A DNA stretch of 64,000 nucleotides from Streptomyces sp. V3I8. Its GTDB lineage: Bacteria > Actinomycetota > Actinomycetes > Streptomycetales > Streptomycetaceae. A program made the translations under genes and the position numbers. The DNA is taken from the NCBI RefSeq assembly GCF_030817535.1, contig NZ_JAUSZL010000002.1, positions 4,092,001 through 4,156,000 on the forward strand, written 5' to 3'. Under the pieces are notes generated by a model, which had not been told where the DNA came from, ran no database searches, and saw nothing but the letters and a program-made list of their open reading frames with translations. This document shows, piece by piece, positions 12,781 to 59,693 of the stretch (position 1 is the first letter of the stretch; each line of letters starts with the position of its first letter).

Positions 12781-13788
12781 TCACAGAGCGGTGGGCAATG
12801 CTTTCGCGCCATCTTCGGTCACCCGGGTCGCCCCGAAGTAGTCGGGCGTGTCGATGGGGTCGAAGCGGATCACCGCGCCCGTCCGGGGCGCGTTGATCAT
12901 GTATCCGCCACCGACATAGACGCCCACGTGCCGAATCGCCCGGGAGTTGGTGAGGTCGTCCGAGAAGAAGACCAGGTCCCCGGGCAGCAGCTCACTGCGC
13001 GCGGGGTGCGGACCGGCGTTGTACTGGTCGTTGGCCACCCGGGGCAGGGTGATCCCCACGCTTTCGTACGCGGCCTTGGTCAGCCCCGAGCAGTCGAAGC
13101 GTCCGCCCTGCTCAGGGGTGCCGTTGCCGCCCCAGAGATACAGCGTGCCGAGCTTCTTCTGCGCGTAGTCGATGGCGCCCGCGGCCTGCTGGGAGGGCTG
13201 CACACGACCGACCGGAGCGGCGAAACTCTGCTCCAGCGTCGTGATCGTCTTCACGTAGTTCCGGGTTTCCCTGTAGGGCGGGACGCCCCCGTATTTGATG
13301 ACGGCGTACGCCCCCGCGTTGTACGCGGCGAGCATGTTCTCCGTCGGATCGCCGGGCGCGTCCTTGACGTACTTCGCGAGCGTGCAGTCGTACTTGGCGG
13401 CCGATGGAATCGCGTCATTCGGATCCCATACGTCGCGGTCGCCGTCCCCGTCACCGTCGATTCCGTGCGTGGCCCACGTTCCCGGGATAAATTGCGCTAT
13501 CCCCTGAGCGGCCGCCGGACTCTTCGCGTCGGGATTGAACCCGCTCTCCTGGTACAGCTGTGCGGCGAGAAGTGCGGGATTGATGGCGCTGCACAGATTG
13601 CCCCATTTCCGTACGAGCGCCTGGTAGCTCGCGGGCACGGCTCCCTTGGCCAGGCCGACGGCTCCCTGCCCCACCCCGTTGGCGAGGTTCCCGGCGACCA
13701 GATAGACGCCGACCACCAGCACCATGGCGAAGGCGAGCCCCGCCCCCACGGCGGCGGTCGCCAAGATCCAGGCCTTACGCACCGTCAA
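12781..13788 (-). CDS. Bifunctional lytic transglycosylase / NlpC-P60 peptidoglycan hydrolase
   Basis: A 335-residue exported wall hydrolase. After an N-terminal membrane anchor (about 7-34) comes an SLT-type transglycosylase domain with catalytic Glu81 in QLYQESGFNPDA and the usual AAQGIAQFIPGTW and MLAAYNAGAYAV. This is followed by an NlpC/P60 domain with Cys233 (FDCSG), His287 (IRHVGVYV) and a third position that is Asn299 rather than the usual His. An acidic GDGDGDRDVWDPNDA loop may bind calcium. This two-domain layout is that of VirB1/Tcp-like enzymes that open the wall for type IV secretion systems, and such a system lies 1.5 kb away. Confidence 0.88.
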   Translation of the reverse strand: MTVRKAWILATAAVGAGLAFAMVLVVGVYLVAGNLANGVGQGAVGLAKGAVPASYQALVRKWGNLCSAINPALLAAQLYQESGFNPDAKSPAAAQGIAQFIPGTWATHGIDGDGDGDRDVWDPNDAIPSAAKYDCTLAKYVKDAPGDPTENMLAAYNAGAYAVIKYGGVPPYRETRNYVKTITTLEQSFAAPVGRVQPSQQAAGAIDYAQKKLGTLYLWGGNGTPEQGGRFDCSGLTKAAYESVGITLPRVANDQYNAGPHPARSELLPGDLVFFSDDLTNSRAIRHVGVYVGGGYMINAPRTGAVIRFDPIDTPDYFGATRVTEDGAKALPTAL

Positions 13789-13959
13789 CCGCCCCTCGCC
13801 GCACGGTAATCCGAACGTCAGTGTAGAGGTGCCGCCCCCGGCACGGAACGATCACTCACCGACCTGCGACACTCGGCCGGAACCATCCCTGACCCCCGGA
13901 CATCCGGCACCCGGGAAGAACAAGAAGAACAAGCAAGAAGCACAAGAAGGAGACGCAGC

Positions 13960-14199
13960 GTGGCAGACGTGCCCCCCGACCTCGTCTGGACCCGCGCCGC
14001 CCCCGAGGGCGCGACGGGACCCGGCCCCTGGATCGAGCTCGCCTTCGGCGACGACGGCCTCGTCCACATCCGCGAGACCAGCGACCCGGAGACCGTCGTC
14101 ACGACCACCCAGAAGAAATGGGACGCCTTCGTGCTGGGCGTACAGGCAGGCGAGTTCGACCACTTCGTGGAAGGCGTCGAAGGCCTGGAGGAGTCCTAG
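13960..14199 (+). CDS. DUF397-like small protein
   Basis: A 79-residue protein with the DUF397 layout: WIELAFGDDGLVHIRETSDPE followed by KKWDAFVLGVQAGEFDHFV. DUF397 proteins are abundant in Streptomyces, often beside XRE regulators such as BldB/WhiJ partners; none is adjacent here. The GTG at 13960 has AGAAGGAGA upstream. Confidence 0.75.
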   Translation: MADVPPDLVWTRAAPEGATGPGPWIELAFGDDGLVHIRETSDPETVVTTTQKKWDAFVLGVQAGEFDHFVEGVEGLEES

Positions 14200-14233
14200 C
14201 CGCCCGCCCCGCCGACCCCGTCCCCATCCGCCC

Positions 14234-14602
14234 TCAGCCGCTTTCGGCCACCCGCCGCGCCCACAGCACCAGCGGCACCTGGAGCGGCAGCCGGGCCAGC
14301 GCCGCGGCCTTCTGGGGCGCCGGCCGGTGACGCCAGTCCACGGCCATCTGGACGTTGGCGGGGAACACCCCGACGAAGAACGCGGCGGTCGCCAGTGCGG
14401 CCACCCGCCGCGTACGGGGCACCGCCACCCCGGCCGCCAGCGCCAGCTCGACGACACCGCTCGCGTACGTCCAGGTCCGGGGCTCGCCCGGCAGCGCACG
14501 CGGGACGGTCGCGTCGAACTGCCGCGGCACCGCGAAGTGGGCGACCGCGGCGGAGGCCAGCAGGCCCGCGAGCAACAGGGGTGAGCGTTCCGACCGGGGC
14601 AC
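14234..14602 (-). CDS. DoxX-like small membrane protein
   Basis: A 122-residue protein with four hydrophobic helices, including LLLAGLLASAAVAHFAV, YASGVVELALAAGVAV and ATAAFFVGVFPANVQMAVDW, which fits the DoxX/DUF4267 family. The function of the family is not well defined. The GTG at 14602 is supported by AGGAGGA six bases upstream; the longer open frame contains only repeat-derived Arg/Leu residues. A palindrome at 14681-14692 upstream could be an operator. Confidence 0.75.
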   Translation of the reverse strand: MPRSERSPLLLAGLLASAAVAHFAVPRQFDATVPRALPGEPRTWTYASGVVELALAAGVAVPRTRRVAALATAAFFVGVFPANVQMAVDWRHRPAPQKAAALARLPLQVPLVLWARRVAESG

Positions 14603-14637
14603 GGGTTCCTCCTCATGGGGTCCCTGAGGACCGGCGG

Positions 14638-14675
14638 GGCTGCGGAGTCTGCGGAGTCTGCGGAGTCTGCGGAGC
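14638..14675. repeat. Nine-base tandem repeat TGCGGAGTC
   Basis: Almost four copies of TGCGGAGTC in a row lie between the DoxX-like gene and its likely promoter. Copy number may vary between strains. Confidence 0.85.
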
Positions 14676-14680
14676 GAGGT

Positions 14681-14692
14681 TACTGGACAGTA
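14681..14692. promoter_or_regulatory. Palindrome TACTGGACAGTA
   Basis: TACTG and CAGTA arms separated by two bases lie 79 bases upstream of the DoxX-like start. This looks like a TetR/MarR/PadR-type operator, but the cognate regulator is unknown. Confidence 0.4.
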
Positions 14693-15023
14693 GCCGCAGC
14701 CGCCAGGAAGGCGCCTCGACACCGAACGGGCACCGCGGACCACCGCACCCCACCGACCGCCCGCTACCCACCGTCCGCACCCGCCCCTCCCCTCCCCGGC
14801 ACCCCCGTCACCCCACCACCCCGTCCGGGATAGCCTTCACCAAGCACAAAAGGGATGACGTCTACCCACCAGGAGACGTACGACCGGAGGACATCGGCAC
14901 GACGGACCGGCGCACACGGGACGGAGTCGGGCTCGATGGACGGGCGGAGTCGGCCATCATCGGGCGGCAGGCGCGCAAGAGGGGTTAACGACGGAACAAA
15001 CCACAGGTTCCGGTTCCACTTCA

Positions 15024-15052
15024 TTGCCCGGCGTGACCTGCCGTGATACACA
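15024..15052 (+). promoter_or_regulatory. Candidate sigma-70-type promoter of the secretion operon
   Basis: TTGCCC at 15024-15029 and TACACA at 15047-15052 are separated by exactly 17 bases. Transcription from here would give a leader of about 195 bases before the start at 15255. The remaining gap from 14693 to 15023 shows no supportable gene. Confidence 0.45.
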
Positions 15053-15125
15053 GAGTGACGATGACCCTCCTCGTATACCGTCCCTGCGCCCCCCGAGGGG
15101 TACCGCGGACGCCGGTGACAAGGGA

Positions 15126-15192
15126 TTCGTACGAAATCCGCCAACCAATGACGCCAAGTCGACATGCGAGAGCGTCATTGTCAGCGACAATG
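15126..15192. promoter_or_regulatory. Two palindromes in the secretion-operon leader
   Basis: TTCGTACGAA (15126-15135) is a perfect 10-base palindrome and CATTGTCAGCGACAATG (15176-15192) has perfect 7-base arms. Both lie between the candidate promoter and the first gene, where they could be operators or an RNA hairpin. Confidence 0.5.
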
Positions 15193-15254
15193 GCGGTGAC
15201 CTCTGCGCAGAGTGGCAGGGGAGGCAGAACAACCCACTAGGGGCGGTGACTTAC

Positions 15255-15563
15255 ATGCTTTTCGCAGCCGAAAAGGGCGACATCAACACGATCATCGGCG
15301 GGATCGCTCCGGACTGGGGCCCGTTCGGCACCCTGGGCAACGAGGCCCGGGTGATGATCGAGGTCGTGATGGCGGTCGCCATCCTCCTGTGTCTCGGCAT
15401 CGCGATCTGGGGAGCGGCGAAGCAACGCATCGGCGCCACTGCCCTGCGGGACACCTTCAGCGCGGAACAGGGCAAGGGCCTGATCATCGCGGGCCTCACC
15501 GGAGTCTTCATCATCGGCTCACTGGGCACGCTCTTCACCATCGTGTACGGCATGGCCGTGTAG
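15255..15563 (+). CDS. Small two-helix membrane protein, first gene of the type IV secretion-like operon
   Basis: A 102-residue protein with a short polar N-terminus (AAEKGDINTIIGGIAPDWGP), a first hydrophobic helix VMIEVVMAVAILLCLGIAIW, a basic loop AAKQRIGATALR and a second helix GLIIAGLTGVFIIGSLGTLF. The size and two-helix topology match VirB2/TrbC- or VirB3-like subunits of type IV secretion systems, though I cannot assign it by signature. The ATG at 15255 begins the conserved-looking part; a longer frame back to 15024 would pass through the palindromes and looks non-coding. Confidence 0.72.
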   Translation: MLFAAEKGDINTIIGGIAPDWGPFGTLGNEARVMIEVVMAVAILLCLGIAIWGAAKQRIGATALRDTFSAEQGKGLIIAGLTGVFIIGSLGTLFTIVYGMAV

Positions 15564-15755
15564 ACGGCCGCCGGCCCGGTGCCCTCGGATCCGGCCGGGC
15601 ACGTCCGATCCCCCGTCCACCCATCCGTCCGTCGCGCCCACCGGCTGAGGTTGCGTTTCCCTGATGTCGAGTCACCACACCGTGCCTGCGCGGAAACCAG
15701 CGGAGCTACCGTCGTACGAGGCGGTTCAGCAAGAGGTCGAGGGGGCGTACGCGGC

Positions 15756-16595
15756 ATGAGTCTCGGTGACGAGCACGGAGCGCGCGGCGAGGACCGCGGG
15801 TACGGAGGCACCGGCCAGACCCGCACCCGGCTCCCCGACAGCACCGGTGACGTCCACGGCGGGCCACGACGCGGCGGCCGTTCGTCCTCCCGCAGCCTCG
15901 TCACGGTGGTGGGTGTCGTGGTCCTCCTCATCGCGGCCATCGCCTTCGCGAACCGCGGCGACAGCGACTCCGCGTCGGACACCGGCACGGGCGACAAACC
16001 GGAAACGGCCTCGACGGCGGCGTCCGGCGACGCCCCGGTGAAGTCGAAGGCAGCCGGCATCCCGACCGGATACGCACACACCGAGCAGGGTGCGCAGAGC
16101 GCGGCGGCCAACTACGCCGTGGCACTGGGGTCCGACGGCATGTTTAACGCCGCCAAACGGCACGAGATCGTGCAGACCGTCGCCGACCGCAGCACGGTGG
16201 AACGACTCCAGTCCGGCTTCGACGCGGACTACTCGGCAGGGCTTCTGAAGAACATCGGACTCGGCGAGGACGGCGGCGCGCCTTCCGGCAGCACCTTCGT
16301 CAACCGCACGCTGCCGGTGGGCACCAGGATCACGTCCAGCAGCGCGGACGCGGCCACGATCGAAGTGTGGTGCAACAGCCTCTTCGGGCTCACTGGGGAA
16401 ACATCCACCAAGCCCGTGACCAACGGCTGGTTCACCGTGACCATGAAACTGAACTGGGCCGATGGAGACTGGAAGGTCCTGGAGACCAGCCAGAAGACCG
16501 GCCCGACCCCCGTCAATGGAGACAACCCGGTCTCCGGGACCGAGGAGATCGGCAAGGCGGTCGACGAGTTCGGAGGGTTCACGTATGCCCGGTAG
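15756..16595 (+). CDS. Membrane-anchored extracytoplasmic protein, VirB8/TcpC-like candidate
   Basis: A 279-residue bitopic protein: a Gly/Arg-rich cytoplasmic N-terminus, one membrane helix (LVTVVGVVVLLIAAIAFA), a low-complexity Ser/Thr/Gly linker and an external domain of about 180 residues. The external domain ends with beta strands such as NGWFTVTMKLNWADGDWKVL, the curved-sheet pattern of NTF2-like folds used by VirB8 and TcpC in secretion channels. That match is structural inference, not a recognised signature. It overlaps the next gene by 11 bases. Confidence 0.68.
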   Translation: MSLGDEHGARGEDRGYGGTGQTRTRLPDSTGDVHGGPRRGGRSSSRSLVTVVGVVVLLIAAIAFANRGDSDSASDTGTGDKPETASTAASGDAPVKSKAAGIPTGYAHTEQGAQSAAANYAVALGSDGMFNAAKRHEIVQTVADRSTVERLQSGFDADYSAGLLKNIGLGEDGGAPSGSTFVNRTLPVGTRITSSSADAATIEVWCNSLFGLTGETSTKPVTNGWFTVTMKLNWADGDWKVLETSQKTGPTPVNGDNPVSGTEEIGKAVDEFGGFTYAR

Positions 16596-17925
16596 CCCGC
16601 AGCGCGCACTCAAGCTCACCGGCGCCGTAGCAGCCGTACAGACCACGGTCGTACTGCTGGCTTCGCAGGCCCACGCAGCTCCGACGCCGACACCGACGCC
16701 CTCCGAGAACAACTGCTCACAGATCTCGGGCCCCGCCAGGGACTACTGCGAACAGAACACCGGCAAGAGCAACCGCAACGGCCCCTCCCTGGACGACCCC
16801 ACCACCGCCCTGGACCCCCTCGCCTCCCTCGCCAAGGGATGCGCGAAAGCCGCCTCCTGGACCATCGACAAGCTCAGCGACGCGGTCCAGAGCACGGCGA
16901 CCGTCGACTTCACGAACACCACGTTCCTGCAGCAGTACGCCGTGGTCTTCGCCGCGTCGACGATCCTCACCCTCCTCCTGTGGCTGCTCGCGGTCGCCAA
17001 GCGCGCCGTGCGGGGCGTCCCCCTCGGCACGGCCATCGGCGAAGCCATCGGCTTCCTCTGGCTGACGGTCCTCGCCTCGGCCTTCACCCCCCTCATCCTC
17101 TACACCGTCGTGTCGGCCACCGACGGCGTCGCCGAGGTCCTCGCCAAGACGACCGGCAACCAGACCGACACCTTCTTCGGCAACTTCTCCGGCGCCCTGA
17201 ACAAGGGCACGGACATCGGCGGCGGCCCGATCATGCTGATCGTGGTCTCCCTCGTGTCGATCCTCGCCGCCGGCGTCCTCTGGCTCGAACTGGTGATCCG
17301 CGCCGCCCTCCTCTACGTCGGCGCGCTCCTCGGCACGGTCGTCTACGCAGGCCTGGTCGACAAGAACCTCTGGGGCCACGTCCGCCGCTGGGCGGGCATC
17401 ATGATCGCCGTCATCCTCGTCAAACCGGTCATCGTGATCGTGCTGGGCCTCGCGGGCGCCCTGTCCGCGGAGGACGGCCCGGACGCCTTCTCCGCCGTCG
17501 TCTCCGGCCTCGCCATCATCCTGCTCGCCATCTTCGCCAGCGCGATGATCTACCGCTTCGTCCCCGGCTTCGGCGACGAGATCGCCGGCGGCCGCAACAA
17601 CCGCATCATGCAGGGCGCCGAGGGCAAGGCCGCGGCCGTCATCAGCTCCCCCGCCACCCTCGTCGCCCAGGGCATCAAGACCCACAGCAGCAGGGCCGAG
17701 AACGGCGGAGGAGGCGGCGGCGGAGGCGGCGGCGGCGGAGGCGGCGGACGCCCGTCCAACCCCCTCTCCGGGGGCGTCGCGGCCCACAGTTCACGCGGCA
17801 ACCAGGGCGGCGGCGGATCCGTCCCCCCCGCCGCACCCCCGCCCCGCTCCAGCCCCGTGAACACCCCCCACGCCGGAAACAACCGCACCAGCAGCAACAA
17901 CCGCACGGGAGGTGAAGGGCGTTGA
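16585..17925 (+). CDS. Polytopic membrane protein, TrbL/VirB6-like
   Basis: A 446-residue protein with a cleavable-looking signal peptide (LTGAVAAVQTTVVLLASQAHA), an external segment, then about six long hydrophobic helices arranged as in TrbL/VirB6 channel proteins. A cytoplasmic tail follows, containing an unbroken run of about 16 glycines and a Pro/Ser/Asn-rich end. The ATG at 16585 has GGAGGG at 16572-16577. Its stop overlaps the next start as TTGA, giving tight translational coupling. It probably forms the inner-membrane pore. Confidence 0.75.
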   Translation: MPGSPQRALKLTGAVAAVQTTVVLLASQAHAAPTPTPTPSENNCSQISGPARDYCEQNTGKSNRNGPSLDDPTTALDPLASLAKGCAKAASWTIDKLSDAVQSTATVDFTNTTFLQQYAVVFAASTILTLLLWLLAVAKRAVRGVPLGTAIGEAIGFLWLTVLASAFTPLILYTVVSATDGVAEVLAKTTGNQTDTFFGNFSGALNKGTDIGGGPIMLIVVSLVSILAAGVLWLELVIRAALLYVGALLGTVVYAGLVDKNLWGHVRRWAGIMIAVILVKPVIVIVLGLAGALSAEDGPDAFSAVVSGLAIILLAIFASAMIYRFVPGFGDEIAGGRNNRIMQGAEGKAAAVISSPATLVAQGIKTHSSRAENGGGGGGGGGGGGGGGRPSNPLSGGVAAHSSRGNQGGGGSVPPAAPPPRSSPVNTPHAGNNRTSSNNRTGGEGR

Positions 17926-19490
17926 CGACTGATTCCCATGTGGCCCATACGTCCCATCCGGTCACGCCCCGCCGTACATATCTGATCGGCCGCGCCCGGC
18001 CGAACGCGATCGTCGGCCGGAACCGCGAGTCCGGCGAGATCGGCCTGATCATCGTGGGCGCGTTCCTCGGCATGATGTGCGGCCTGATCGTCCCCGTGCT
18101 CTCCCTGCGCATCGTGCTGCTCATGGGCTTCCCGATGCTCGCGCTCGCCGCGGTCTACGTGCCGTACAAGCGGCGAACCTTCTACAAGTGGTTCGAGATC
18201 AACCGCAGTTACAAGCGCAGCCTGCGCCGCGGCACCGCCTACCGCAGCAACGTCATGGAGTCGGGCACCCATGCCGACGGCCGCGAGGTCGAGGTCGGCC
18301 CGCCCCCGGGCATCGGCCGCATCACCTGGCTCGCCGCGCCGTTCGGCCCGGACGAGATCGCCGTACTCCTGCACGCCGACCGCAAGACCGTCACCGCCGC
18401 CATCGAGATCGAGGGCCCCGGCGTCGGTCTGCGCGACAGCGAGGACCAGGAAGCCCTCGTCGACCGCTTCGGCACGCTCCTCAAGCACGTCGCCAACGGC
18501 GACGGCTTCGTCACCCGCATCCAGATGCTCGCCCGCACCCTCCCCGCCGACCCGGACGCCCACGCCAAGGACGTCTCCGTACGCGGCGACGAACGGGCCC
18601 CCGGCTGGCTCCAGGGATCGTACGAGCAGCTCCAGTCCATGGTGTCGACGAGCAGCGAACAGCACCGCGCCTACCTCGTCGCCTGCATGCACTACTCCCG
18701 CGAACTGGCCGCCGAGGGCCAGGCGATGGCCCGCGCCGCCCGCCCCAAGGGCGGCAAGAAGCTCGACAAGGACGCCGGCCTCGCCGTCGTCATGGCCCGC
18801 GAGCTCACCGACATCTGCTCACGCCTCCAGGAGGCCGACATCCGGGTCCGCCAGCCCCTCGGCCAGGGCCGGCTCTCCTCCCTCGTGCACTCCATGTACG
18901 ACCCGGACCACCCCATCGACCACATCCAGGCGATGACCAAGCGCAACGCCTGGCCGGCCGAGCTCGACGCCATGGAGCCGACCTACCTCCAGGCCAAGAC
19001 CCGCGAATCGTCCACCCGCGCCCCCTGGTGCCACTCCACGGCCTGGGTGAAGGAATGGCCGATGACCCCGGTCGGCGTCAACTTCCTCGCCCCGCTGCTC
19101 GTCCACACCCCGGACGTCATCCGCACGGTCGCCGTCACCATGGACCTCGAACCCACCGAGATCGCCATCGAGCGGATGCTGACCGAGAAGACGAACGACG
19201 AGGCCGAGGCCAACCGCCAGGCCAAGATGAACCGCACCGTCGACCCCCGCGACGTCGCCTCCCACAACCGCGTCGACCAGCGCGGCCAGGACCTCGCCAG
19301 CGGCGCCGCCGGCGTCAACCTCGTCGGGTACATCACCGTCTCGTCCCGCAACCCCGAGGCACTCGCCCGCGACAAGCGGACGATCAGGGCCTCGGCCGGA
19401 AAGTCGTACCTGAAGCTGGAGTGGTGCGACCGCGAGCACCACCGCGCCTTCGTCAACACACTCCCGTTCGCGACCGGCATCCGGAGGTAG
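17922..19490 (+). CDS. SCO6880-family membrane protein of type IV secretion-like systems
   Basis: A 522-residue protein with two adjacent membrane helices near the N-terminus (IGLIIVGAFLGMMCGLIVPV and LLMGFPMLALAAVYVPY) and a long cytoplasmic region containing RRTYLIGRARPN and LPFATGIRR. I recognise it as the SCO6880 type, found beside VirB4-like ATPases in Streptomyces. The helix pair resembles PrgI/VirB3 fused to the N-terminal part of VirB4, so this gene and the next may be a split VirB3-VirB4; that is inference. It starts with TTG at 17922, behind GGAGGTGAAGG. Confidence 0.75.
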   Translation: MTTDSHVAHTSHPVTPRRTYLIGRARPNAIVGRNRESGEIGLIIVGAFLGMMCGLIVPVLSLRIVLLMGFPMLALAAVYVPYKRRTFYKWFEINRSYKRSLRRGTAYRSNVMESGTHADGREVEVGPPPGIGRITWLAAPFGPDEIAVLLHADRKTVTAAIEIEGPGVGLRDSEDQEALVDRFGTLLKHVANGDGFVTRIQMLARTLPADPDAHAKDVSVRGDERAPGWLQGSYEQLQSMVSTSSEQHRAYLVACMHYSRELAAEGQAMARAARPKGGKKLDKDAGLAVVMARELTDICSRLQEADIRVRQPLGQGRLSSLVHSMYDPDHPIDHIQAMTKRNAWPAELDAMEPTYLQAKTRESSTRAPWCHSTAWVKEWPMTPVGVNFLAPLLVHTPDVIRTVAVTMDLEPTEIAIERMLTEKTNDEAEANRQAKMNRTVDPRDVASHNRVDQRGQDLASGAAGVNLVGYITVSSRNPEALARDKRTIRASAGKSYLKLEWCDREHHRAFVNTLPFATGIRR

Positions 19491-19496
19491 GACTCT

Positions 19497-20921
19497 ATGC
19501 GGGATCCGCTGTCCGTCCTCACGGAGGGCTTCACCTCCTTCCTCTTCGGCAAGGTCGAGACGACCCGCCCGCCGGTACGCACCTCCACCGGCCAGGCCCA
19601 GGCCGTCTACCTGCCGACCGCGGCCCCCGGCCTCGGCGACTCCGGCGTCATCATCGGCCGCGAGGTCTACTCGGGGAAGGGCTACATCTACGACCCCTTC
19701 CAGCTGTACGGACAACAGCTCCCCGCGCCGCACTGGCTGGTCCTCGGCGAGTCCGGCAACGGCAAGTCGGCGCTCGAGAAGACGTACGTCATGCGGCAGC
19801 TGCGGTTCAAGGACCGCCAGGTCGTCGTCCTGGACGCCCAGGGCGAGGACGGGGTCGGCGAGTGGAACCTCATCGCCCAGGCGCTGGGACTCACCCCCAT
19901 CCGCCTCGACCCGACCGCCGCCCTGGACATGGGCATCCGGCTCAACCCGCTCGACCCGGCGATCACCACGACCGGCCAGCTCGCGCTGCTCCGGACGATC
20001 ATCGAGGTCGCCATGGGCCACGGCCTGGACGAACGCTCCGGCTTCGCCCTGAAGGTCGCCCACGCCTACGTCAACGAGACGATCGTCGACCGCCAGCCCG
20101 TCCTCACCGACATCGTCGAGCAGCTGCGCCACCCCGAACCGGAGTCGGCGGAGGCGATGAACGTCGCCATAGACGACGTACGCGCCTGGGGCCTCGACGT
20201 CGCCCTGGTCATCGACCGCCTCGTCGACGGTGACCTGCGCGGCATGTTCGACGGCCCGACGACCGTCGGCATCGACCTCGACGCCCCCCTCATCGTCTTC
20301 GACCTGTCCCACATCGACCGCAACTCCATCGCCATGCCCATCCTCATGGCGATCGTCGGCGTGTGGCTGGAGCACACCTGGATCCGCCCCGACCGGAAGA
20401 AGCGCATCTTCCTCGTCGAGGAGGCCTGGCACATCATCAACAGCCCGTTCGTCGCCCAGCTCTTCCAGCGCCTGCTGAAGTTCGGCCGACGGCTCGGCCT
20501 GTCGTTCGTGGCGGTGGTCCACCACCTGTCCGACGTGGTGGACGGAGCAGCCGCAAAAGAGGCCGCGGCGATCCTCAAGATGGCCTCGACCAGGACGATC
20601 TACGCCCAGAAGGCCGACGAGGCCAGAATGACGGGCCGGGTCCTCGGCCTGCCCCGGTGGGCGGTGGAGATCATCCCCTCCCTCACCCCGGGCATCGCCG
20701 TGTGGGACGTCAACGGCAACGTCCAGGTCGTCAAACACCTGATCACCGAGACCGAACGGCCGCTCGTCTTCACCGACCGCGCCATGACGGAGTCGTCGGC
20801 CGACCACCTCGCCGACGACGCCCTGCGCGCCGCCGAACTGGAGGCCGAGGAGCGGGCCGCGGCCTTCATGGAGCACCACCTGAGCGACCTCGACGACTCG
20901 TCCGAGTCCACGGTGGCGTAG
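19497..20921 (+). CDS. VirB4-like secretion ATPase
   Basis: A 474-residue P-loop ATPase with Walker A GESGNGKS (84-91) preceded by PAPHWLVL, a VVVLDAQGEDGVGEWN strand, and Walker B IFLVEEAWHI near residue 303-312, the usual VirB4/TraC arrangement (EEAW). It ends with the typical FGRRLGLSFVAVVHHLSDV sensor segment. It lacks the large N-terminal part of classic VirB4, which seems to be supplied by the gene before. It would energise assembly or substrate transport at the inner membrane. Start ATG 19497, six bases after the previous stop, with GGAGG at 19482. Confidence 0.85.
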   Translation: MRDPLSVLTEGFTSFLFGKVETTRPPVRTSTGQAQAVYLPTAAPGLGDSGVIIGREVYSGKGYIYDPFQLYGQQLPAPHWLVLGESGNGKSALEKTYVMRQLRFKDRQVVVLDAQGEDGVGEWNLIAQALGLTPIRLDPTAALDMGIRLNPLDPAITTTGQLALLRTIIEVAMGHGLDERSGFALKVAHAYVNETIVDRQPVLTDIVEQLRHPEPESAEAMNVAIDDVRAWGLDVALVIDRLVDGDLRGMFDGPTTVGIDLDAPLIVFDLSHIDRNSIAMPILMAIVGVWLEHTWIRPDRKKRIFLVEEAWHIINSPFVAQLFQRLLKFGRRLGLSFVAVVHHLSDVVDGAAAKEAAAILKMASTRTIYAQKADEARMTGRVLGLPRWAVEIIPSLTPGIAVWDVNGNVQVVKHLITETERPLVFTDRAMTESSADHLADDALRAAELEAEERAAAFMEHHLSDLDDSSESTVA

Positions 20922-20935
20922 AGGAGCGGACCGAG

Positions 20936-22531
20936 ATGAGACCGGACGATCGCGACCGCCACCACGGCGGCGGCAGCGGCCAGGGGGGCGTCCCCGACGG
21001 CCTGCTGCTGGGCCTGCTGGCCTTCGGCCTCGGCATGACCGTCATGGTATGGACGGCGACCGGCCTCGCCGGTCTCTTCTCCCACGGCTCCTGGCCCGAC
21101 GGGATCACCTTCCGCCGTACGCCCCTGGCCATACGCCAGCTCGTCGCCGCTCCCCACGACCTGCCGGCCGCCTGGCCCGACACCCCACCGGACCAGCTCT
21201 CCGGGTACGGGCTCTTCTGGGGCCTGTTCATCGGCCAGCTCATGGTGCTGGTGGTGCTCACGGTGTTCGTGCTGGGCACGGTGGCGAGATGGCGGGCGGG
21301 AAGGGCGAGACGCAGGGAGCTCGCGCCGCCCGCGTCCCCCGCCCAGGAGCCCGCGCCTGCTCCCGTACAGGAGCAGGCGCCGGAACCGGAAGCAGCGCCC
21401 CGGCCCCGTCCGCGGCCCGAACCGGTCCCCCGCGAGCAGGCCCCGCACCCCGTGGTCGAACAGGTACCGGCGGCCCAGCCGGTCGTCCCGGCGCATTCGC
21501 TCCCGCAGCCGGTTCCCGCGTCGTCCGCCGGTGAAGGGACGGGCACGGCGGGGACGGGCACGGCGGGCGGGTGGGAAAGCCCCGTGCCGGCCCCGCGGGG
21601 CCCGGTCGTCCTCGGCCCGCCCGAGACCCGCCATCCCCTCGCCGTCCAGGCGATCCGGGACGCGGACGGCCCCGCCCTGGTCATCACCTCCGACCCGGGC
21701 CTCTGGTCGAACACGAAGGACGCCCGGGCCAAACTGGGCCCCGTCCTCCTCTACGACCCCTCCCACCTCTGCGACACCCCGGCCCGCCTCCACTGGTCCC
21801 CCTCCGCGGGCTGCGAGTCCAAGGACACCGCCAGGGCCCGCGCGGCGGCGCTGCTCGCCCCGGTCCGGCCCACGGCCCGGATCGACCAGGCGGTCGCCGA
21901 CACCGCCGAAACACTCCTGCGCAGCTACCTCCACGCCGCCGCGGTCGACGGCCGCACCATCCGGCACGTCCACCGCTGGGCACAGGGCACGCAGGTCCAG
22001 GAAGCCGTACGCATCCTCCGTACGAACCCGAAGGCCGCCGCCGGCTCCGCGGGCGAACTGGAAGCCGCCCTCACCTCATACCCGGAACGGCGGGACATCG
22101 CCCAGGAGCTGACGGCCCGGGCGCTCTCCGCGCTCTTCACGGTCAACATCCGGGAAGCGTGCACTCCCAACCGAACCGACACCCTCACCTTGGATTCCTT
22201 CGTCAACGAGGGGGGCACACTTTATGTGGTGGGTGAACCCATCGAGGACCCGAGGTCGAATCCCGGCGCCATGCCGCTCCTGACGGCCCTCGCCTCAAGC
22301 GTGGTCGAGCGCGGCCGGCGCATGGCCGAACGGTCATCCTCCGGTCGCCTCGACCCACCACTCACCCTGGTCCTGGACGACGTCGCCGCGGTGGCCCCGC
22401 TACCCCAGCTCCCGGACCTGCTCACGACGAGCGCGGACACGTCCTCGGACCGCGGTCTCCCTACACTGGCGCTGCTGCGCTCCCGTGAACAGGCCCGCTC
22501 CCGCTGGCCCCACCACGACCTCCCGGTGTGA
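20936..22531 (+). CDS. TraG/VirD4-like membrane protein lacking a Walker A motif
   Basis: A 531-residue protein with an N-terminal helix (GLLLGLLAFGLGMTVMVWTA), a second helix near 107-125 and a Pro/Glu/Ala-rich linker of about 80 residues. The C-terminal domain resembles the end of TraG/VirD4 coupling proteins: YVVGEP, then Walker B LTLVLDDVAAVAPLPQLPDLL and a final LALLRSREQARSRW. No GxxxxGKS is visible at the expected position (VITSDPGLW), so it may not hydrolyse ATP by itself. Homologues are often labelled type VI secretion protein, which looks wrong. ATG 20936 follows GAGGAG. It is the last gene of the operon. Confidence 0.72.
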   Translation: MRPDDRDRHHGGGSGQGGVPDGLLLGLLAFGLGMTVMVWTATGLAGLFSHGSWPDGITFRRTPLAIRQLVAAPHDLPAAWPDTPPDQLSGYGLFWGLFIGQLMVLVVLTVFVLGTVARWRAGRARRRELAPPASPAQEPAPAPVQEQAPEPEAAPRPRPRPEPVPREQAPHPVVEQVPAAQPVVPAHSLPQPVPASSAGEGTGTAGTGTAGGWESPVPAPRGPVVLGPPETRHPLAVQAIRDADGPALVITSDPGLWSNTKDARAKLGPVLLYDPSHLCDTPARLHWSPSAGCESKDTARARAAALLAPVRPTARIDQAVADTAETLLRSYLHAAAVDGRTIRHVHRWAQGTQVQEAVRILRTNPKAAAGSAGELEAALTSYPERRDIAQELTARALSALFTVNIREACTPNRTDTLTLDSFVNEGGTLYVVGEPIEDPRSNPGAMPLLTALASSVVERGRRMAERSSSGRLDPPLTLVLDDVAAVAPLPQLPDLLTTSADTSSDRGLPTLALLRSREQARSRWPHHDLPV

Positions 22532-35404: not shown

Positions 35405-35635
35405 GCCGTTTCGGCCCGGAGCCCTGTGCGCCGGTGGCGTGACCACCTGTGCACGGGTACCTCCGGGGCCGGCGCGCGATGTTCCGCGCTGCTCGCCGGG
35501 CCCGGGTTCGTCAAGCTCCGTTCGGGTGATCCCCACGTATGAGTGGTTGATTGGTTCCCGTGAGTAACGCCTGTGGCTCCGTGTGGCACTGTTTCCGGTG
35601 TTCGGATCCGACTGTGCAGGCGGGGGCTTTCCGCG

Positions 35636-37621
35636 ATGAGCGTTGACGGTCGGGACGGGGCGTCCGGCGACGGGGGCACGGAGACCGGAGCGGAGACCGG
35701 AGCGGAAACCGGCACGGAAGCCGACGTCGAAGCCGAAGCCGAAGCCGAAGCCGAAGCCGAAGGCAGTGTTCCGGCTCAGCGTGAGTGGCGCGACAGCGGG
35801 GTGCTGCCTCCTCCCGTCGAACCGTTCTCCGCTGAACCACCGACCTCCGACGCCGAGTTGGTCGAGTGGATGCGGTCGGGCGACGACACGGCGTACGAGG
35901 AGCTGTTCCGGCGCCACTCGGACGCCGTCCGCCGGTACGCGCGCACCTGCTGCCAGGACACCCACACGGCGGACGACCTCACCGCCGAGGTCTTCGCCCG
36001 TACGCTGCAGGCCGTGCGCGGCGGCAGCGGCCCCCGGCACTCCGTACGCGCCTACCTGCTGACGACCGTACGGCGCGTCGCGGCGGGCTGGACCAGGTCG
36101 GCGCGGCGGGAACACCTCGTCGACGACTTCGCCGTGTTCGCGGCCCGGGCCGCCCGCGGCTCCGACCTGCCGGACGACACCGCGCCCCCCGGCTCCTTCG
36201 GCGCAGGCCATGAACTGGGCGCCGACGTACGGGCCATGCACGAGGCCGAGCAGTCGCTGGCCATGCAGGCGTTCCGTTCGCTGCCCGAGCGCTGGCAGGC
36301 CGTGCTGTGGCACACCGAGGTCGAGGACGAGTCGCCCAGCGAGGTCGCCACGCTCTTCGGCCTGGATGCCAACGGCACGCGCGTCCTGGCCAGCCGGGCC
36401 CGCGAGGGCCTCAAGCAGGCCTATCTGCAGGCCCACGTGAGTGCCGCGCTCGCCCTGGACGAGGAGTGCGCGCGCCACGCCGACCGGCTCGGCGCGTACG
36501 CACGCGGCGGGCTGCGCACGCGGGCCGAGCGCGGGCTGCGCAAGCACCTGGAGGAGTGCGCCAGGTGCCGGCTCGCGGCCGGTCAGATCAAGGAGGTCGC
36601 GAACGGCATCCCCGCGGTCGTGCCGGTCGCGGTCATCGGCTGGTTCGGTGCCGCCGGGTACGCGAAGGCGGCCGCGCTCATCGCCGGCGGGACCGGCGTG
36701 GGCGCGGCCGGTGCCGCCGGGGCCGCGTCCGCGGCGGGTGGTGGCGCGGGGGGCGCGGGGGCCGGTGGCGGGGCGGCGGCGGAAGGGTTCGGCGCGCCCG
36801 TGAAGGCCGGGATCGCGGCCGGGGTCGTCGCGGTGGCCGTCGCCGCGGTCGTGTTCGCGCTGGCGGGCGACGACATCCCCGCGAAGAGGTCCGGGGCCGG
36901 GCCGCGCCCGCCCGGTCCGGTCGTCGGACCGAGCGTGCCGTCGCCGTCCCCGGAGCCGCCGGGGGCGGCGAAAGCGGCGCCCGGGCCGGTGGTGGCGCTG
37001 AAGCGGACGCCGACGCCGGAACCGAAGCCGTCCCGGCCGGTCGGGCCCGCCCCGGAGCCGAGGCCGGCATCGATGCCGGAGCCGAAGCCGGCGCCGACCG
37101 TGGCACCCGCTCCCGGGCCCACGCCCTCCCCCGCCCCTCCCGCGCCCGCTCCTGCTCCGCCACCCCCGCCGGCTCCCGCGCCCGCCCCCGCCGTCTTCCG
37201 GTGGAACGCGCTCGAGTACGGCATCACCGGGGACGGCACCCGGCCCGAGATGCGGCTCGGGGAGAGCACCTGGGTCTGGCAGCGGTACGGCATGTCGGTC
37301 GCCGGCAAGCCGTACGCGAACGGTGTCACCGTGCACGGCGCGTCCTCGGTCACCATCGATCTGAACCGCGCGTGTTCCTCGTACGACGCGATGGCCGGCG
37401 TGGACGATCTGACGAGGGGGCTCGGGCAGGTGCGGTTCTCCGTGTTCGCGGACGGGGTGCGGGTGTGGCGGTCGGAGGTGGTGCGGGGTGGGCAGGCGGC
37501 GGTGCCCGTGCGGGTGGATCTGACGGGCCAAAGGACGATCCGGCTGGTCGTGGAACCGCGGTCCGCCTTCGACACGGTGTCCCTGGCGGACTGGGCCGAC
37601 TCCCGGTTCCGCTGCGGCTGA
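35636..37621 (+). CDS. ECF-like sigma factor fused to zinc-finger, membrane helix and NPCBM-like domain
   Basis: A 661-residue multi-domain protein. Residues 1-45 are Thr/Glu/Ala low complexity. Sigma region 2 is about 72-140 (ELVEWMRSGDDTAYEELFRR, DDLTAEVFARTLQ) and region 4 about 195-265 (LPERWQAVLWHTEVEDESPSE). A zinc finger of the anti-sigma (ZAS) type follows, with H304-x3-C308-x2-C311. One membrane helix is near 394-416. A proline-rich linker leads to a C-terminal NPCBM/galactose-binding-like beta domain from about 520. Tethering sigma, anti-sigma-like finger and external sugar-binding module in one chain suggests direct sensing of wall sugars. The ATG at 35636 begins the fold. Confidence 0.85.
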   Translation: MSVDGRDGASGDGGTETGAETGAETGTEADVEAEAEAEAEAEGSVPAQREWRDSGVLPPPVEPFSAEPPTSDAELVEWMRSGDDTAYEELFRRHSDAVRRYARTCCQDTHTADDLTAEVFARTLQAVRGGSGPRHSVRAYLLTTVRRVAAGWTRSARREHLVDDFAVFAARAARGSDLPDDTAPPGSFGAGHELGADVRAMHEAEQSLAMQAFRSLPERWQAVLWHTEVEDESPSEVATLFGLDANGTRVLASRAREGLKQAYLQAHVSAALALDEECARHADRLGAYARGGLRTRAERGLRKHLEECARCRLAAGQIKEVANGIPAVVPVAVIGWFGAAGYAKAAALIAGGTGVGAAGAAGAASAAGGGAGGAGAGGGAAAEGFGAPVKAGIAAGVVAVAVAAVVFALAGDDIPAKRSGAGPRPPGPVVGPSVPSPSPEPPGAAKAAPGPVVALKRTPTPEPKPSRPVGPAPEPRPASMPEPKPAPTVAPAPGPTPSPAPPAPAPAPPPPPAPAPAPAVFRWNALEYGITGDGTRPEMRLGESTWVWQRYGMSVAGKPYANGVTVHGASSVTIDLNRACSSYDAMAGVDDLTRGLGQVRFSVFADGVRVWRSEVVRGGQAAVPVRVDLTGQRTIRLVVEPRSAFDTVSLADWADSRFRCG

Positions 37622-56451: not shown

Positions 56452-56681
56452 CCAGCCCCGCCGTGCGCGCCCGGGACACCCCGGACCGCACGGTCCCCCA
56501 GCAGATCGACGGCCTGCTGATCGTCGACACGGACAAGGTCCGCGCTCGCTACGAGTGCTACCGCCCCGACTGCCCCCAGCGCCGCGAAGGACCGGCCTTC
56601 GGGCCGGACGCCGTCCTGGAGTTCGTCCGCGCCATCAAGACCGAGCACCTCGCCCGGCACCACTACGGGGAGAAGCCTTGA
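56448..56681 (+). CDS. Small hypothetical protein
   Basis: A 77-residue protein with one Cys pair six residues apart (YECYRPDCPQ) and FVRAIKTEHLARHHYGEKP at the end; a C-x-x-x-x-C and late His-His could bind zinc. Its stop overlaps the TTG start of the prim-pol gene. No family recognised. Confidence 0.6.
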   Translation: MTSPAVRARDTPDRTVPQQIDGLLIVDTDKVRARYECYRPDCPQRREGPAFGPDAVLEFVRAIKTEHLARHHYGEKP

Positions 56682-59335
56682 CCGACGCGCAGACCACCGA
56701 TCTCCGGGCAGCCGCCCGCGACCTGCACGAAGCAGGCCTGTGCGTCCTGCCCATCAAGGCCGACGGCAGCAAGAAGCCCGCCGTGTCCTGGCTCCGGTAC
56801 AAGGTCACCCGCAGCACCCCCGAAGAGCACGACGACTGGTTCGACGGCGACCGCCCGCGCGGCATCGCCGTGGTCTACGGCGGTGTCTCGGGGAACGTCG
56901 AGATGCTGGAGTTCGAGGGCCTCGCCGTTCGTGACGGCGTCCTCGACGAGGTCACCGAGATCATGGAGGGCTCCGGCCTCGGCGAGGTGTGGCAGAGCAT
57001 CACCACCGGGTGGTCGAGCCAGTCCCCTTCCGGCGGCGTGCACTACCGGGTCCGTGTCGAGGACGGCGTCGCCGGCAACAAGAAGCTGGCCAGTCGTCTC
57101 GCCCGTGAGGACGAGTACACCGCGGAAGAACGGCAGCGCGTCGCCGAGAAACCCAACTCGAAGATCGTGCGAGTCCTCATCGAGACGCGCGGTGAGGGCG
57201 GCTACGGGCTGGTCGAGCCGTCCGACGGCCCGGTCCACGCCTCCGGGCGTCCGTACGTCCGCCTGGCCGGCGGGCCCGGCAGCATCCCGACCCTCGACGC
57301 GGACACGCTCGAAGCGGTGCACGCCGTCTGCCAGATGGTCGACGCGATGCCCCGCGAGGAGAAGGCGAAGACCGCGCCGCGTCCGAAGCGTGAGCTTCCC
57401 GAGGGCGGCGTCCGGCCGGGTGACGACTTCGAGGCCCGCACGGATTGGCCGCAGATCATCGGCGACGAGTTCGATCCGATCTTCACGCGCGGTAGCACCA
57501 CGTACTGGCGCCGCAAGGGGAAGAGCCAGGGGTTTTCGGCGACGACCGGCCACGCTGCGGACCGCGACCGCCTGTACGTCTTCACCACCTCGACGACGTT
57601 CGAGTCCGAGACGCCCTACGACAAGTTCGCTGCGTACACCCACCTCACGCAGGGCGGCACCGGCGCGGAGCATTTCAAGCGCGCCGCTGCCGAACTGCGC
57701 GGTCGCGGGTACGGCACCGAGTCTCCTCGGCGGCGTCTGTCCTCCGTCCCCGCGCAGCACTTCGCCGACGGCTCATCGGCGCTCGACGCCGAGCACGCCC
57801 CCGATACACAGGAGGGGTTCGAGGGCGGGCCGCAGCTGCGCTCCGTCTCTTCCCGCCCCGAGCTGGACATCACCAACGAGGCCGACGGCATCGACGGCGT
57901 CCTGCAGCTCATGAAGGACGGCCGTCTGCCCGACCTGTACACCCGGTCCGGCGGCCCCTGCTGGGTCTACCGCGACGACAACGACGACCCGATCGTCCAG
58001 CAGCTCGGCGCCGACAACCTCCGCGCCTACCTCGCCGACCACGTGTCCAGCTTCACGCTGAAGCGGAACCCGCTCACCGAGCAGCTGGAGGAAGAGCGGG
58101 AGCTGCTCATGCCCAAGAGCTGCTCGACGATCCTGGGTCGGAAGACGTGGCCGCTGCCGATCCTGCGCGGCATCGTCACCTCGCCCGTGGTCCGTCCGGA
58201 CGGGTCTCTGCTCGACGCCCTCGGCTACGACCGCGCCACGGGCCTGTACCTCGAACCACGCGTGCCGCTGCGCCGCCTCGCTCCGCAGGTGACCCGCGAC
58301 AGCCTCGACCGGGCGAAGGCCATCGTCCTGGACCAGGTGCTGAAGGACTTCCCGTGGGTCGGCCCGAGCGACCGCGCGCACTTCCTCGGCGCCCTGCTGA
58401 CCCCGATTCTCCGCCCCTACTTCCACGGCGCGACTCCGATGTTCGTGCTCACCGCGACCGCCGCAGGGTCCGGAAAGAGCCTGCTCAAGGACATCTTTCG
58501 ATACTGCTACGGCATCGCTGACACGGCCTGGCCCGAGAACGACACCGAGCTGCGCAAGAGCATCACCACCCAGCTGTACGGCACAGGCCAGCCCGTCGTC
58601 GTCCTCGACAACCTGCCCAACGGATACGTCATCAAGAGCCCGGTCCTGTCCGCACTGCTGACCTCCGAGGTGTGGGGGGACCGCGTCCTCGGATCCACAT
58701 CCAAGGTCACGATGCCCAACGACAGGCTGTGGATCGTCACCGGCAACGCGCTGCGCACCGGCGGCGACAACCGGCGCCGCGTCTTCTGGGTCCGCCTGGA
58801 TCCCGACTGCCCGGATCCCGACCAGCGCGACAACTTCACCGTCGGCGACCTCCGCCCGTGGCTGCGCCAGCACGCCTCAACTCTGGTCGCTGCCCTGGTG
58901 ACGTTGGTGCGGGCCTGGATCGCCGCGGGGGCGCCCCAAGTCCGCGTCCGTAAAGGCGACTACAGCCACTGGGCCAGCCTCATCGCCGGCCTTCTCCACT
59001 TCCTCGGGGTCGAAGGCTGGAATGCCGACCGTGAGGAGGCCCGCGACCAGGACGACGAGCTGCAGGAATGGGCCCTCTTCCTGGAGATGTGGCGCGAGAC
59101 CTACGGCTCGGAACCCCTGGCCACAGGCGCTCTCATCAAGGGCTTGCCCCTCCACGTACCTCGCAAGGGCGACGACCCGCCGAGCGCGAACCAGCTGGGC
59201 ATCTGGCTGAAGGCTCGGCAGGGCCGCTACTTCGGCACGCACAAGGTCGTGATGGTCGTCGACAGCCACCGGAAGCAAAACCTGTGGCGCGTCGAGGTCC
59301 ATGCCGACCGCGGCGCCGGAAGGCACGAATCGTGA
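56678..59335 (+). CDS. Bifunctional primase-polymerase / ATPase replication protein
   Basis: An 885-residue replication protein. The N-terminal part (about 5-230) is a prim-pol domain: LHEAGLCVLPIKADGSKKPA, GIAVVYGG, WQSITTGWSSQSPSGGVHYR. The C-terminal part has a P-loop, ATAAGSGKS near 592-600, VVVLDNLPNG near 640 and DRLWIVTGNALRTGGDNRRR (sensor/arginine finger), like primase-associated helicases of plasmids and phages. It should start replication of the excised element at the adjacent repeats. TTG 56678 overlaps the previous stop (TTGA) and follows GGGGAG. Confidence 0.85.
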   Translation: MTDAQTTDLRAAARDLHEAGLCVLPIKADGSKKPAVSWLRYKVTRSTPEEHDDWFDGDRPRGIAVVYGGVSGNVEMLEFEGLAVRDGVLDEVTEIMEGSGLGEVWQSITTGWSSQSPSGGVHYRVRVEDGVAGNKKLASRLAREDEYTAEERQRVAEKPNSKIVRVLIETRGEGGYGLVEPSDGPVHASGRPYVRLAGGPGSIPTLDADTLEAVHAVCQMVDAMPREEKAKTAPRPKRELPEGGVRPGDDFEARTDWPQIIGDEFDPIFTRGSTTYWRRKGKSQGFSATTGHAADRDRLYVFTTSTTFESETPYDKFAAYTHLTQGGTGAEHFKRAAAELRGRGYGTESPRRRLSSVPAQHFADGSSALDAEHAPDTQEGFEGGPQLRSVSSRPELDITNEADGIDGVLQLMKDGRLPDLYTRSGGPCWVYRDDNDDPIVQQLGADNLRAYLADHVSSFTLKRNPLTEQLEEERELLMPKSCSTILGRKTWPLPILRGIVTSPVVRPDGSLLDALGYDRATGLYLEPRVPLRRLAPQVTRDSLDRAKAIVLDQVLKDFPWVGPSDRAHFLGALLTPILRPYFHGATPMFVLTATAAGSGKSLLKDIFRYCYGIADTAWPENDTELRKSITTQLYGTGQPVVVLDNLPNGYVIKSPVLSALLTSEVWGDRVLGSTSKVTMPNDRLWIVTGNALRTGGDNRRRVFWVRLDPDCPDPDQRDNFTVGDLRPWLRQHASTLVAALVTLVRAWIAAGAPQVRVRKGDYSHWASLIAGLLHFLGVEGWNADREEARDQDDELQEWALFLEMWRETYGSEPLATGALIKGLPLHVPRKGDDPPSANQLGIWLKARQGRYFGTHKVVMVVDSHRKQNLWRVEVHADRGAGRHES

Positions 59336-59345
59336 CCGGCCGTTC

Positions 59346-59670
59346 TGCGGGGAGTGCGGGGACTCTGCGGGGACCTGTGCGGGGACTCCGACCGGCCTCC
59401 GCACCCGGCCCGGCCTGCACGGACGCGGGGACGCGGGGACTTGCGGGGACTTGCACCGCTCCCCTGTATGGCGCACGCGTCCCACATGCATCGCGTATCG
59501 CACATTCCGCCGGTCGTCACGGATCAGTTCTGAAGCTCTCCGTCATCAAGGGCTTTCTCAAGTCCCCGCAAGTCCCCGCATCCCCGCAAAACCCCTGATC
59601 AGACCGGATGGAGAGGCCCTCCCGACTCCCCGCAGCGACTCCCCGGAGTCCCCGCAGTCCCCGCAAAGAC
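59346..59670. repeat. Iteron-like array of TGCGGGGACT in both orientations (candidate origin)
   Basis: Between the prim-pol and helicase genes, TGCGGGGACT-type units begin at about 59346, 59355, 59366, 59378, 59425, 59433 and 59443. AGTCCCCGCA-type units in reverse occur at 59561, 59571, about 59579, 59624 and 59635-59665. The two clusters face each other across about 110 bases of unrelated, less GC-rich sequence. The whole gap (59336-59693) has no gene. This is the expected place and form for a replication origin of the element. Confidence 0.75.
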
Positions 59671-59693
59671 CCAGCAAACGAAACGAGGTGACC

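Follow-up and report, generated by a model that had tools for sequence, protein, structure and literature searches.

Introduction

The closest described relative of the locus considered here is the cmdABCDEF operon of Streptomyces coelicolor (SCO4126–4131), with its neighbour tgdA (SCO4132). We compare it with the corresponding genes of a different species, Streptomyces sp. V3I8, which lie in a stretch of 64,000 nucleotides of contig NZ_JAUSZL010000002.1 (the window; 4.09–4.16 Mb of the contig) in a genome of 9.3 Mb; among the matches listed, S. apricus is its closest relative (CmdB 100%). According to the 2009 report (PMC2782261), the six cmd genes of S. coelicolor are co-transcribed, and single nulls of cmdB to cmdF, or deletion of cmdA–F, impair sporulation, with apparently fewer spores; deletion of cmdA leaves sporulation without apparent difference. 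The cmdB and cmdA–F mutants have defects in branching, septation and chromosome segregation, with anucleate spores at 8% and 6%, respectively, versus 0.1% in the wild type. Aerial growth of cmd mutants is delayed, with aberrant branches and collapsed aerial hyphae, and blue pigment is overproduced by the cmdB, cmdD, cmdE and whole-set mutants. The same report gives a deletion phenotype for S. coelicolor, S. lividans and S. avermitilis, and states that transfer of an SLP2-derived plasmid is not significantly changed by cmd deletion (data not shown there). CmdB is membrane-located, and its Lys mutants do not complement, though the authors point out that the mutations might destabilise the protein. 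They likened CmdB to VirB4 and suggested that a type IV-like channel might translocate the chromosome or plasmids, while terming CmdA and CmdC–F simply membrane proteins. According to PMC6585502, tgdA and cmdBCDEF mutants are alike in actinorhodin overproduction.

The operon, its sporulation phenotype and the VirB4 likeness of CmdB are known already. What is new, as far as our searches show, is that the operon appears to encode a split VirB4, a protein with a VirB8 fold and a degenerate coupling protein, and that it seems to have a single origin across the order; in the literature searched, outside which most subscription journals lie, we found no published assignment of the Cmd proteins to these parts of a type IV secretion system (T4SS). 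On balance we favour the view, held with a little more confidence than doubt, that the locus encodes a VirB-type machine of the envelope which has been domesticated, is powered by CmdB and probably cooperates with TgdA in aerial hyphae.

The cmd Locus of the Window

Six co-directional, tightly packed genes occupy 15255–22531 of the window in the order F-E-D-C-B-A, with cmdF first and cmdA last, and a divergent gene for a protein with SLT and NlpC/P60 domains, tgdA, lies beside them at 12781–13788. An earlier reading made from the letters alone (the first-pass annotation) had placed six coupled genes and a divergent hydrolase here, and all of these open reading frames (ORFs) are found. The genes, numbered from their likely starts, are as follows (TM, transmembrane).

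tgdA (SCO4132 orthologue), 12781..13788, minus strand: one N-terminal TM segment, SLT lytic transglycosylase and NlpC/P60 peptidase; VirB1-like wall hydrolase
cmdF (SCO4131), 15255..15563, plus strand: two-TM subunit of 102 residues; VirB2-like by position only
cmdE (SCO4130), 15756..16595, plus strand: bitopic, one TM segment and then an NTF2-like outer domain; VirB8/DotI type, by fold
cmdD (SCO4129), 16585..17925, plus strand: polytopic, channel-like; perhaps TrbL/VirB6-like, SCO6881-related (weak)
cmdC (SCO4128), 17922..19490, plus strand: predicted VirB3-like helix pair fused to an apparent VirB4 N-terminal half; SCO6880 family
cmdB (SCO4127), 19497..20921, plus strand: apparent VirB4 C-terminal ATPase half; Walker A GESGNGKS, Lys90
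cmdA (SCO4126), 20936..22531, plus strand: type IV coupling-protein relative; Walker A lost (GPPETRHP), Walker-B-like LVLDD kept, part C-terminal of LVLDD missing

The cmdD and cmdC genes overlap by 4 bases, and cmdC starts with TTG.

Taken from sequence together with the published description, the window locus is the orthologue of S. coelicolor cmdABCDEF and tgdA. The same six-gene set and neighbour are described there, the S. coelicolor protein sequences lying outside our comparison; the Walker A Lys90 of S. coelicolor cmdB has the same number in the window CmdB; and the published 31-base cmdB mutagenesis primers align to the window cmdB with 4 and 2 mismatches. Phosphate-transport genes are nearby in both, SCO4141 of S. 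coelicolor being a phosphate permease and SCO4142 pstS. The primer labels in PMC2782261 look swapped: the “K404A” primer covers Walker A Lys90 (window 19749) and reads Lys to Glu, and the “K90A” primer covers window residue 413 (window 20719) and reads Lys to Arg.

CmdC and CmdB Resemble Two Halves of VirB4

CmdC matches the NCBIfam family SCO6880_fam with an E-value of 2e-53, above the family cut-off. In its predicted model, two N-terminal helices (residues 37–56 and 60–79) precede a VirB4-like part, and a Foldseek search of the PDB with this model gave 14 matches at E ≤ 0.001, all of them chains of R388 T4SS entries. Four of these are named TrwK/VirB4 (best 7.5e-10); the other ten come from inner-membrane-complex entries and are taken to be VirB4 from their VirB4-like length. 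CmdB matches Pfam AAA_10 (1.1e-12) and also TraC/VirB4 families. On the CD1110 VirB4 profile, CmdC residues 296–517 align to positions 138–362 (E 0.26, not significant alone) and CmdB residues 28–379 align, collinearly, to positions 370–701 (2e-10), as a split VirB4 would predict. VirB4 thus looks to be divided between two proteins, CmdC being by its model the N-terminal half behind two membrane helices and CmdB, by profile, the C-terminal half. The Walker A motif of CmdB, GESGNGKS, is identical in 143 of 143 loci (own genome counted twice), and the ratio of nonsynonymous to synonymous substitution rates (dN/dS) of CmdB is at most 0.08. The helix pair of CmdC may correspond to VirB3, with no VirB3 profile match among the Pfam and NCBIfam scans. 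A Pfam scan of CmdC homologues returned no T4SS family, and profile searches with the CmdC, CmdE and CmdD alignments, and with CmdB alone, gave nothing at E ≤ 1 against the sequences of solved structures.

The R388 Trw T4SS, whose TrwK/VirB4 the CmdC model resembles, is differently arranged: there, VirB4 is one chain, VirB3 is a separate protein and VirB10 is present, whereas in cmd VirB4 appears split and the VirB3-like pair sits on CmdC. The Trw system also has a relaxase, a coupling protein and an outer-membrane part. If our reading is right, the “SCO6880 family” gains a likely role, that of VirB3 and the N-terminal half of VirB4, which would be useful for annotating actinobacterial conjugation systems.

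CmdE, CmdD, CmdF, and TgdA

The AlphaFold core of CmdE has a predicted local distance difference test score (pLDDT) of 90–98. Among the matches listed in its Foldseek search (50 rows), the top target-normalised template modelling score (TM-score), 0.72, belongs to the IcmL-like T4SS protein 5cnl, followed by CagV/VirB8 at 0.61 (6iqt) and 0.60. By fold only, CmdE has the features of a VirB8/DotI-type bitopic protein; the protein itself has no significant Pfam or NCBIfam match, and the NCBIfam scan of its homologues gave no T4SS family. The listing of SCO4130 as a membrane glycoprotein, in PMC6593405, fits an outer domain. CmdD has several TM segments and matches SCO6881_fam at 1.2e-4, far under the family cut-off, and Pfam TrbL_4 is matched, also weakly, by 7 of 23 CmdD homologues (best 9e-5) but not by the window CmdD, so that a TrbL/VirB6 likeness is only faintly suggested. 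CmdF, with two TM stretches and no significant Pfam or NCBIfam match, is nearly invariant (dN/dS ≤ 0.05 against seven relatives) and is 40–44% identical to three homologues of non-cmd loci; on the Iamia plasmid its slot is annotated DUF6112.

TgdA carries SLT (4.2e-16) and NLPC_P60 (5.1e-23) domains in Pfam. Of the 97 cmd loci with a cmdF gene, 74 have tgdA upstream of it, in every case on the opposite strand and with a gap of 223–5342 bases; tgdA was not found in 20 loci that reach at least 5.6 kb upstream of cmdF, nor in 3 that reach less far. The same fused SLT/C40 enzyme stands beside CmdB homologues on SLP2 and pSglau1. The interval between tgdA and cmdF looks like an insertion site, given its variable gap and the loci in which tgdA was not found (20, e.g., L048, L060, and L061), and a scan of the tgdA–cmdF gap for promoter and terminator consensus sequences found none.

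The first-pass annotation is supported, with corrections to some of its part names. Its VirB1-like hydrolase is borne out by the domains, with incomplete linkage across relatives, and its VirB8-like bitopic protein by the fold of CmdE, with no sequence-profile match. It had also named a VirB4-like ATPase and a separate SCO6880 protein; the former holds for CmdB, and the latter, CmdC, looks instead like the other half of VirB4. The TrbL/VirB6-like channel rests on the weak CmdD matches given above. The profile searches that it proposed returned VirB4 families for CmdB and SCO6880_fam for CmdC, and nothing significant for CmdE, CmdF, or CmdA. The last of these had been called coupling-protein-like, which is right as to kinship and misses the loss of the ATP-binding motif.

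CmdA, a Degenerate Coupling Protein

A tblastn search of plasmids with CmdA matched coupling proteins in 99 plasmid records; the best 30 of the 99 mostly carry TraM-recognition/TraG annotations, at 29–37% identity over about residues 224–533. The window CmdA has no significant Pfam or NCBIfam match. Where the coupling proteins of non-cmd loci read PPREGKTS, PPRSGKT and similar at Walker A, the window CmdA reads GPPETRHP. Glycine and lysine (GK) stand at the aligned Walker A column in 17 of 17 non-cmd coupling proteins versus 1 of 113 cmd loci, leaving the ATP-binding motif lost in 112 of the latter. The column was scored in the alignment, a regular expression having missed most of the element proteins, whose motifs deviate at either end; “element” is here a label for the non-cmd relatives, not all of which are demonstrably mobile. 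The count of 113 comes from 148 non-element loci, of which 34 gave no row and one, the own-genome locus L084, was left out. Those 34 comprise L001 and 13 others cut less than 1 kb after CmdB, 15 that lack the domain, and L149–L153, which are not cmd-operon stretches; for some of the 113 the sequence ends short of the C-terminus, and named and unnamed loci may repeat species.

The CmdA ATPase domain was not found in 15 cmd loci with at least 5 kb past cmdB. Nine of these come from a single other family of the order; the remaining six belong to the own family, spread over four of its genera, and three of these six still match the TM part of CmdA. In the Streptomyces loci that reach its end, CmdA stops about 50 residues past the Walker-B-like LVLDD, a stretch retained in most rows of the alignment. 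The coupling ATPase of cmd is thus, as far as its sequence tells, degenerate, the ATP-binding motif being lost or the domain missing. Since a coupling protein is likewise missing from the fetched stretch of 10 of 27 non-cmd loci, absence is not special to cmd; a coupling protein that is kept but apparently dead is, in this sample. The sole GK-bearing cmd locus, L136 (GPARSGKAT), is from genome G530 of another family of the order, and because it branches first within cmd (see below), a gradual decay of an originally active coupling protein would fit.

Distribution and Single Origin

An orthologue of CmdB is present in 148 of 150 Streptomyces genomes, in 121 of 121 Streptomycetaceae genomes (17 genera; best match at least 82%) and in 80 of 80 genomes of the order (at least 79%). 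The three samples share members, and the own genome is among those counted; that of the order adds 15 genomes of two other families. One Streptomycetaceae genome has cmdB in two pieces (90–91%), and a few CmdB matches, at least four in the family sample, span one stop codon. Two Streptomyces genomes are exceptions: in G124, with no CmdB match, CmdC is present at a contig edge, so that CmdB probably lies in an assembly gap, and in G136, an assembly of about 1010 contigs, neither CmdB nor CmdC was matched. Within the class sample, 38 of 296 genomes match CmdB at E ≤ 1e-50: 31 belong to the own genus, a further genome from another family matches at 78%, and the remaining six match at 32–37%.

The genes cmdE-D-C-B stand together in all fetched stretches that reach them, from 16 of the 17 sampled genera of the family, with the exception of L131; this grouping is more than chance. 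In L131 (6262–9719; from G166, one of two genomes of its genus), cmdF is followed by cmdC with neither cmdE nor cmdD in between, tgdA was not found at the locus, and two CmdD homologues lie elsewhere in the genome. In L129, a stretch holding 10 N bases, cmdF and tgdA were not found.

A CmdB tree (IQ-TREE; 27 element rows, 30 cmd loci and the window) places the 31 cmd rows on one side of a branch with support of 99/98, which is present in 98% of 200 bootstrap trees. The cmd clade stands beside plasmid and other non-cmd sequences, and a long-branch warning concerns chiefly the non-cmd rows. L136 is the first branch within cmd, and the next fork is weakly supported (83/21). We conclude that cmd was probably already a permanent part of the chromosome when the sampled families of the order separated. 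Since the own genome holds a single SCO6880-family gene, it houses no conjugative element of this type of which Cmd could be a spare.

The first-pass annotation had asked for conservation across Streptomyces and had named patchy distribution as grounds for abandoning its reading of a relaxase-less, domesticated T4SS-like machine of the core chromosome; the presence of CmdB throughout the genus, family and order samples, with the profiles, folds and core flanks, supports that reading.

Mobility Genes and Related Transfer Systems

No relaxase or integrase family appears in a Pfam scan of 38 window ORFs, which cover part of the window genes and include some overlapping or unlikely frames; this agrees with the earlier statement that none is nearby. 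Among ORFs of at least 150 residues in 142 cmd loci (the 148 non-element loci less L001 and L149–L153, which were left out of the ORF database), neither a MobF homologue nor an SLP2-type TraB was found, other relaxase types being searched for in the window only. Among 27 non-cmd stretches, 5 hold a MobF homologue, and the query itself is one of these five homologues.

A similar layout is seen on Rothia amarae p1, Paenarthrobacter pTC1 and the Iamia plasmid, which carry a small protein, genes in the VirB8 and VirB6 slots, an SCO6880-type protein, an ATPase and a coupling protein in the same order as cmd, and, on two of the three, an SLT or M23 wall-hydrolase gene nearby. Unlike cmd, which has neither, all three have a GK-bearing coupling protein and a MobF/TraA-type relaxase on the same stretch. 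SLP2 and pSglau1 resemble cmd in having an SLT/C40 hydrolase, a small protein and a CmdB-like ATPase in a row, and in the comparison published in PMC2782261 SLP2.21–23 resemble SCO4127–4129. Their CmdB-like ATPase is only 33–34% identical to CmdB, the SLP2 gene in the CmdC slot matched residues 458–522 of CmdC only, and an FtsK-like TraB lies beside the cluster, where cmd has no such TraB. In the stretches fetched from SLP2 and pSglau1, neither MobF nor a coupling protein was found.

T4SS and FtsK-type transfer are usually presented as alternatives. On SLP2 (L083, 4501–12205) and pSglau1 (L175, 4465–12127), an FtsK-like TraB is combined with T4SS-like genes. A second T4SS-like cluster is seen in Streptomycetaceae (L161–L165 and L170), with a CmdB homologue of about 32% identity and probably, judging by its published description, of the SCO6871–6884 kind; within the 20 kb fetched, it shows no coupling protein, MobF or SLP2-type TraB.

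What Might the Cmd Machine Do?

The domesticated envelope machine that we favour would have arisen when the membrane core of an actinobacterial conjugation-type T4SS became a fixed chromosomal operon and its DNA-handling parts were lost. With the relaxase and the substrate selection of the coupling protein gone, the CmdB-powered core would no longer move DNA between cells. Its likeliest task would then be that of a fixed complex of the envelope, at work in aerial hyphae ahead of septation: it would open or remodel the wall with TgdA and assemble or export something without which septation is not orderly. The mis-segregation of chromosomes and the overproduction of actinorhodin would follow from this as downstream effects. 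A coupling protein is dispensable for protein export in some T4SSs, so that its loss need not end transport. A bolder picture, distinctly tentative, is that loss of the relaxase and death of the coupling ATPase turned a conjugation machine into an organ of hyphal development throughout a bacterial order. In it, a T4SS core devoid of a coupling protein would build or feed a conduit where aerial hyphae form septa, jointly with the wall hydrolase and perhaps with FtsK acting on intact chromosomes, much as the SLP2-type module stands beside its FtsK-like TraB. The first-pass annotation had suggested protein export or a role in hyphal wall or septum biology; the operon itself is not new, cmdABCDEF having a published phenotype in sporulation, septation and chromosome segregation (PMC2782261).

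Several of our results pull against this reading. The CmdC model has a mean pLDDT of 66, a predicted TM-score (pTM) of 0.59 and a TM-score to VirB4 of about 0.46; ranked by E-value, the CmdE matches are led by non-T4SS NTF2-like proteins (ARC6); and the assignments of CmdD and CmdF are weak. The link with TgdA is looser than the window suggests, tgdA being not found in 20 of the 97 loci even though these 20 extend at least 5.6 kb upstream of cmdF. A MobF homologue was not found in 12 of the 17 non-cmd stretches that have a coupling protein, so that its absence from cmd is weak evidence alone, and the non-cmd relatives in whose fetched stretch no coupling protein is seen (10 of 27) have been mentioned. 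The S. coelicolor CmdA sequence lies outside the comparison, and in Streptomyces purifying selection acts on the C-terminal part of CmdA (residue 226 onwards, numbering from base 20918), with a dN/dS of 0.11–0.21 in seven pairs. CmdA is not simply a pseudogene, then, because this part is still constrained. That constraint, with the Walker-B-like stretch kept in most rows, is what would be expected of a non-catalytic cargo receptor, a dead ATPase that picks substrates while CmdB alone gives the energy. We regard this as improbable, given that the cmdA deletion has no apparent effect on sporulation in PMC2782261, that the ATPase domain was not found in the 15 loci described above, and that CmdA diverges faster than CmdB or CmdC.

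The published segregation defect also counts against the envelope machine, as it suggests that CmdB could act on DNA. Cmd might move or anchor chromosomal DNA at sporulation septa, with CmdB as a DNA-directed motor beside FtsK and the segregation defect as the primary one. The rise in anucleate spores (PMC2782261, as above) is in accordance with this, as is the suggestion of its authors of a channel for chromosome or plasmid translocation; furthermore, on SLP2 and pSglau1 an FtsK-like TraB adjoins a CmdB relative and an SLT/C40 enzyme, while the fetched stretch shows no coupling protein, and this implies that the module can pair with a double-stranded DNA translocase. The segregation defect and the FtsK-like partner on SLP2 make a direct DNA role possible, yet we consider it rather unlikely: the coupling protein, which is the DNA handler of a T4SS, has lost its ATP-binding motif or is missing; a search of 142 cmd loci turned up neither MobF nor an SLP2-type TraB; and the delayed aerial growth, aberrant branches and collapsed hyphae of PMC2782261 are not predicted by a DNA role at septa. 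Least of all do we credit a defective integrative and conjugative element in decay, located close to the middle of the chromosome and retained either by chance or for the transfer of DNA. The relatives of cmd are indeed of conjugative type, but cmd is universal in the order as one clade, CmdB is constrained (dN/dS ≤ 0.08), no integrase is seen in the ORFs scanned, and, in PMC2782261, deletion has a phenotype in three species without significantly affecting transfer of an SLP2-derived plasmid.

T4SS part names, an apparently dead coupling ATPase next to a retained VirB4 motor and a placement at the base of the order turn an open question of Streptomyces development into direct tests. The domesticated envelope machine would show clearly how a conjugation apparatus can be taken into the service of multicellular development, not of effector secretion.

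Flanks and Other Features of the Window

The flanks of the locus are core chromosome, with PAP2, FAD-oxidoreductase and phosphate-transport genes on one side and a GNAT gene followed by 5S/23S/16S rRNA genes on the other. A low-GC stretch at 23.2–28.4 kb was considered as an element flank and rejected, being the rRNA operon (5S by Rfam; 23S and 16S from the sequence). The rRNA neighbourhood is probably old, since 5S matches, seen in 56 of 175 fetched loci, many of them short, extend to ten loci from non-Streptomyces genomes of the family.

At 56555–61313 of the window, a 926-residue protein with a Prim-Pol domain adjoins a DEAD/ResIII helicase; the two could belong to an element or a defence system. 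At 35573–37621, sigma-70 region 2 and a C-terminal NPCBM domain are joined in one protein, an unusual pairing.

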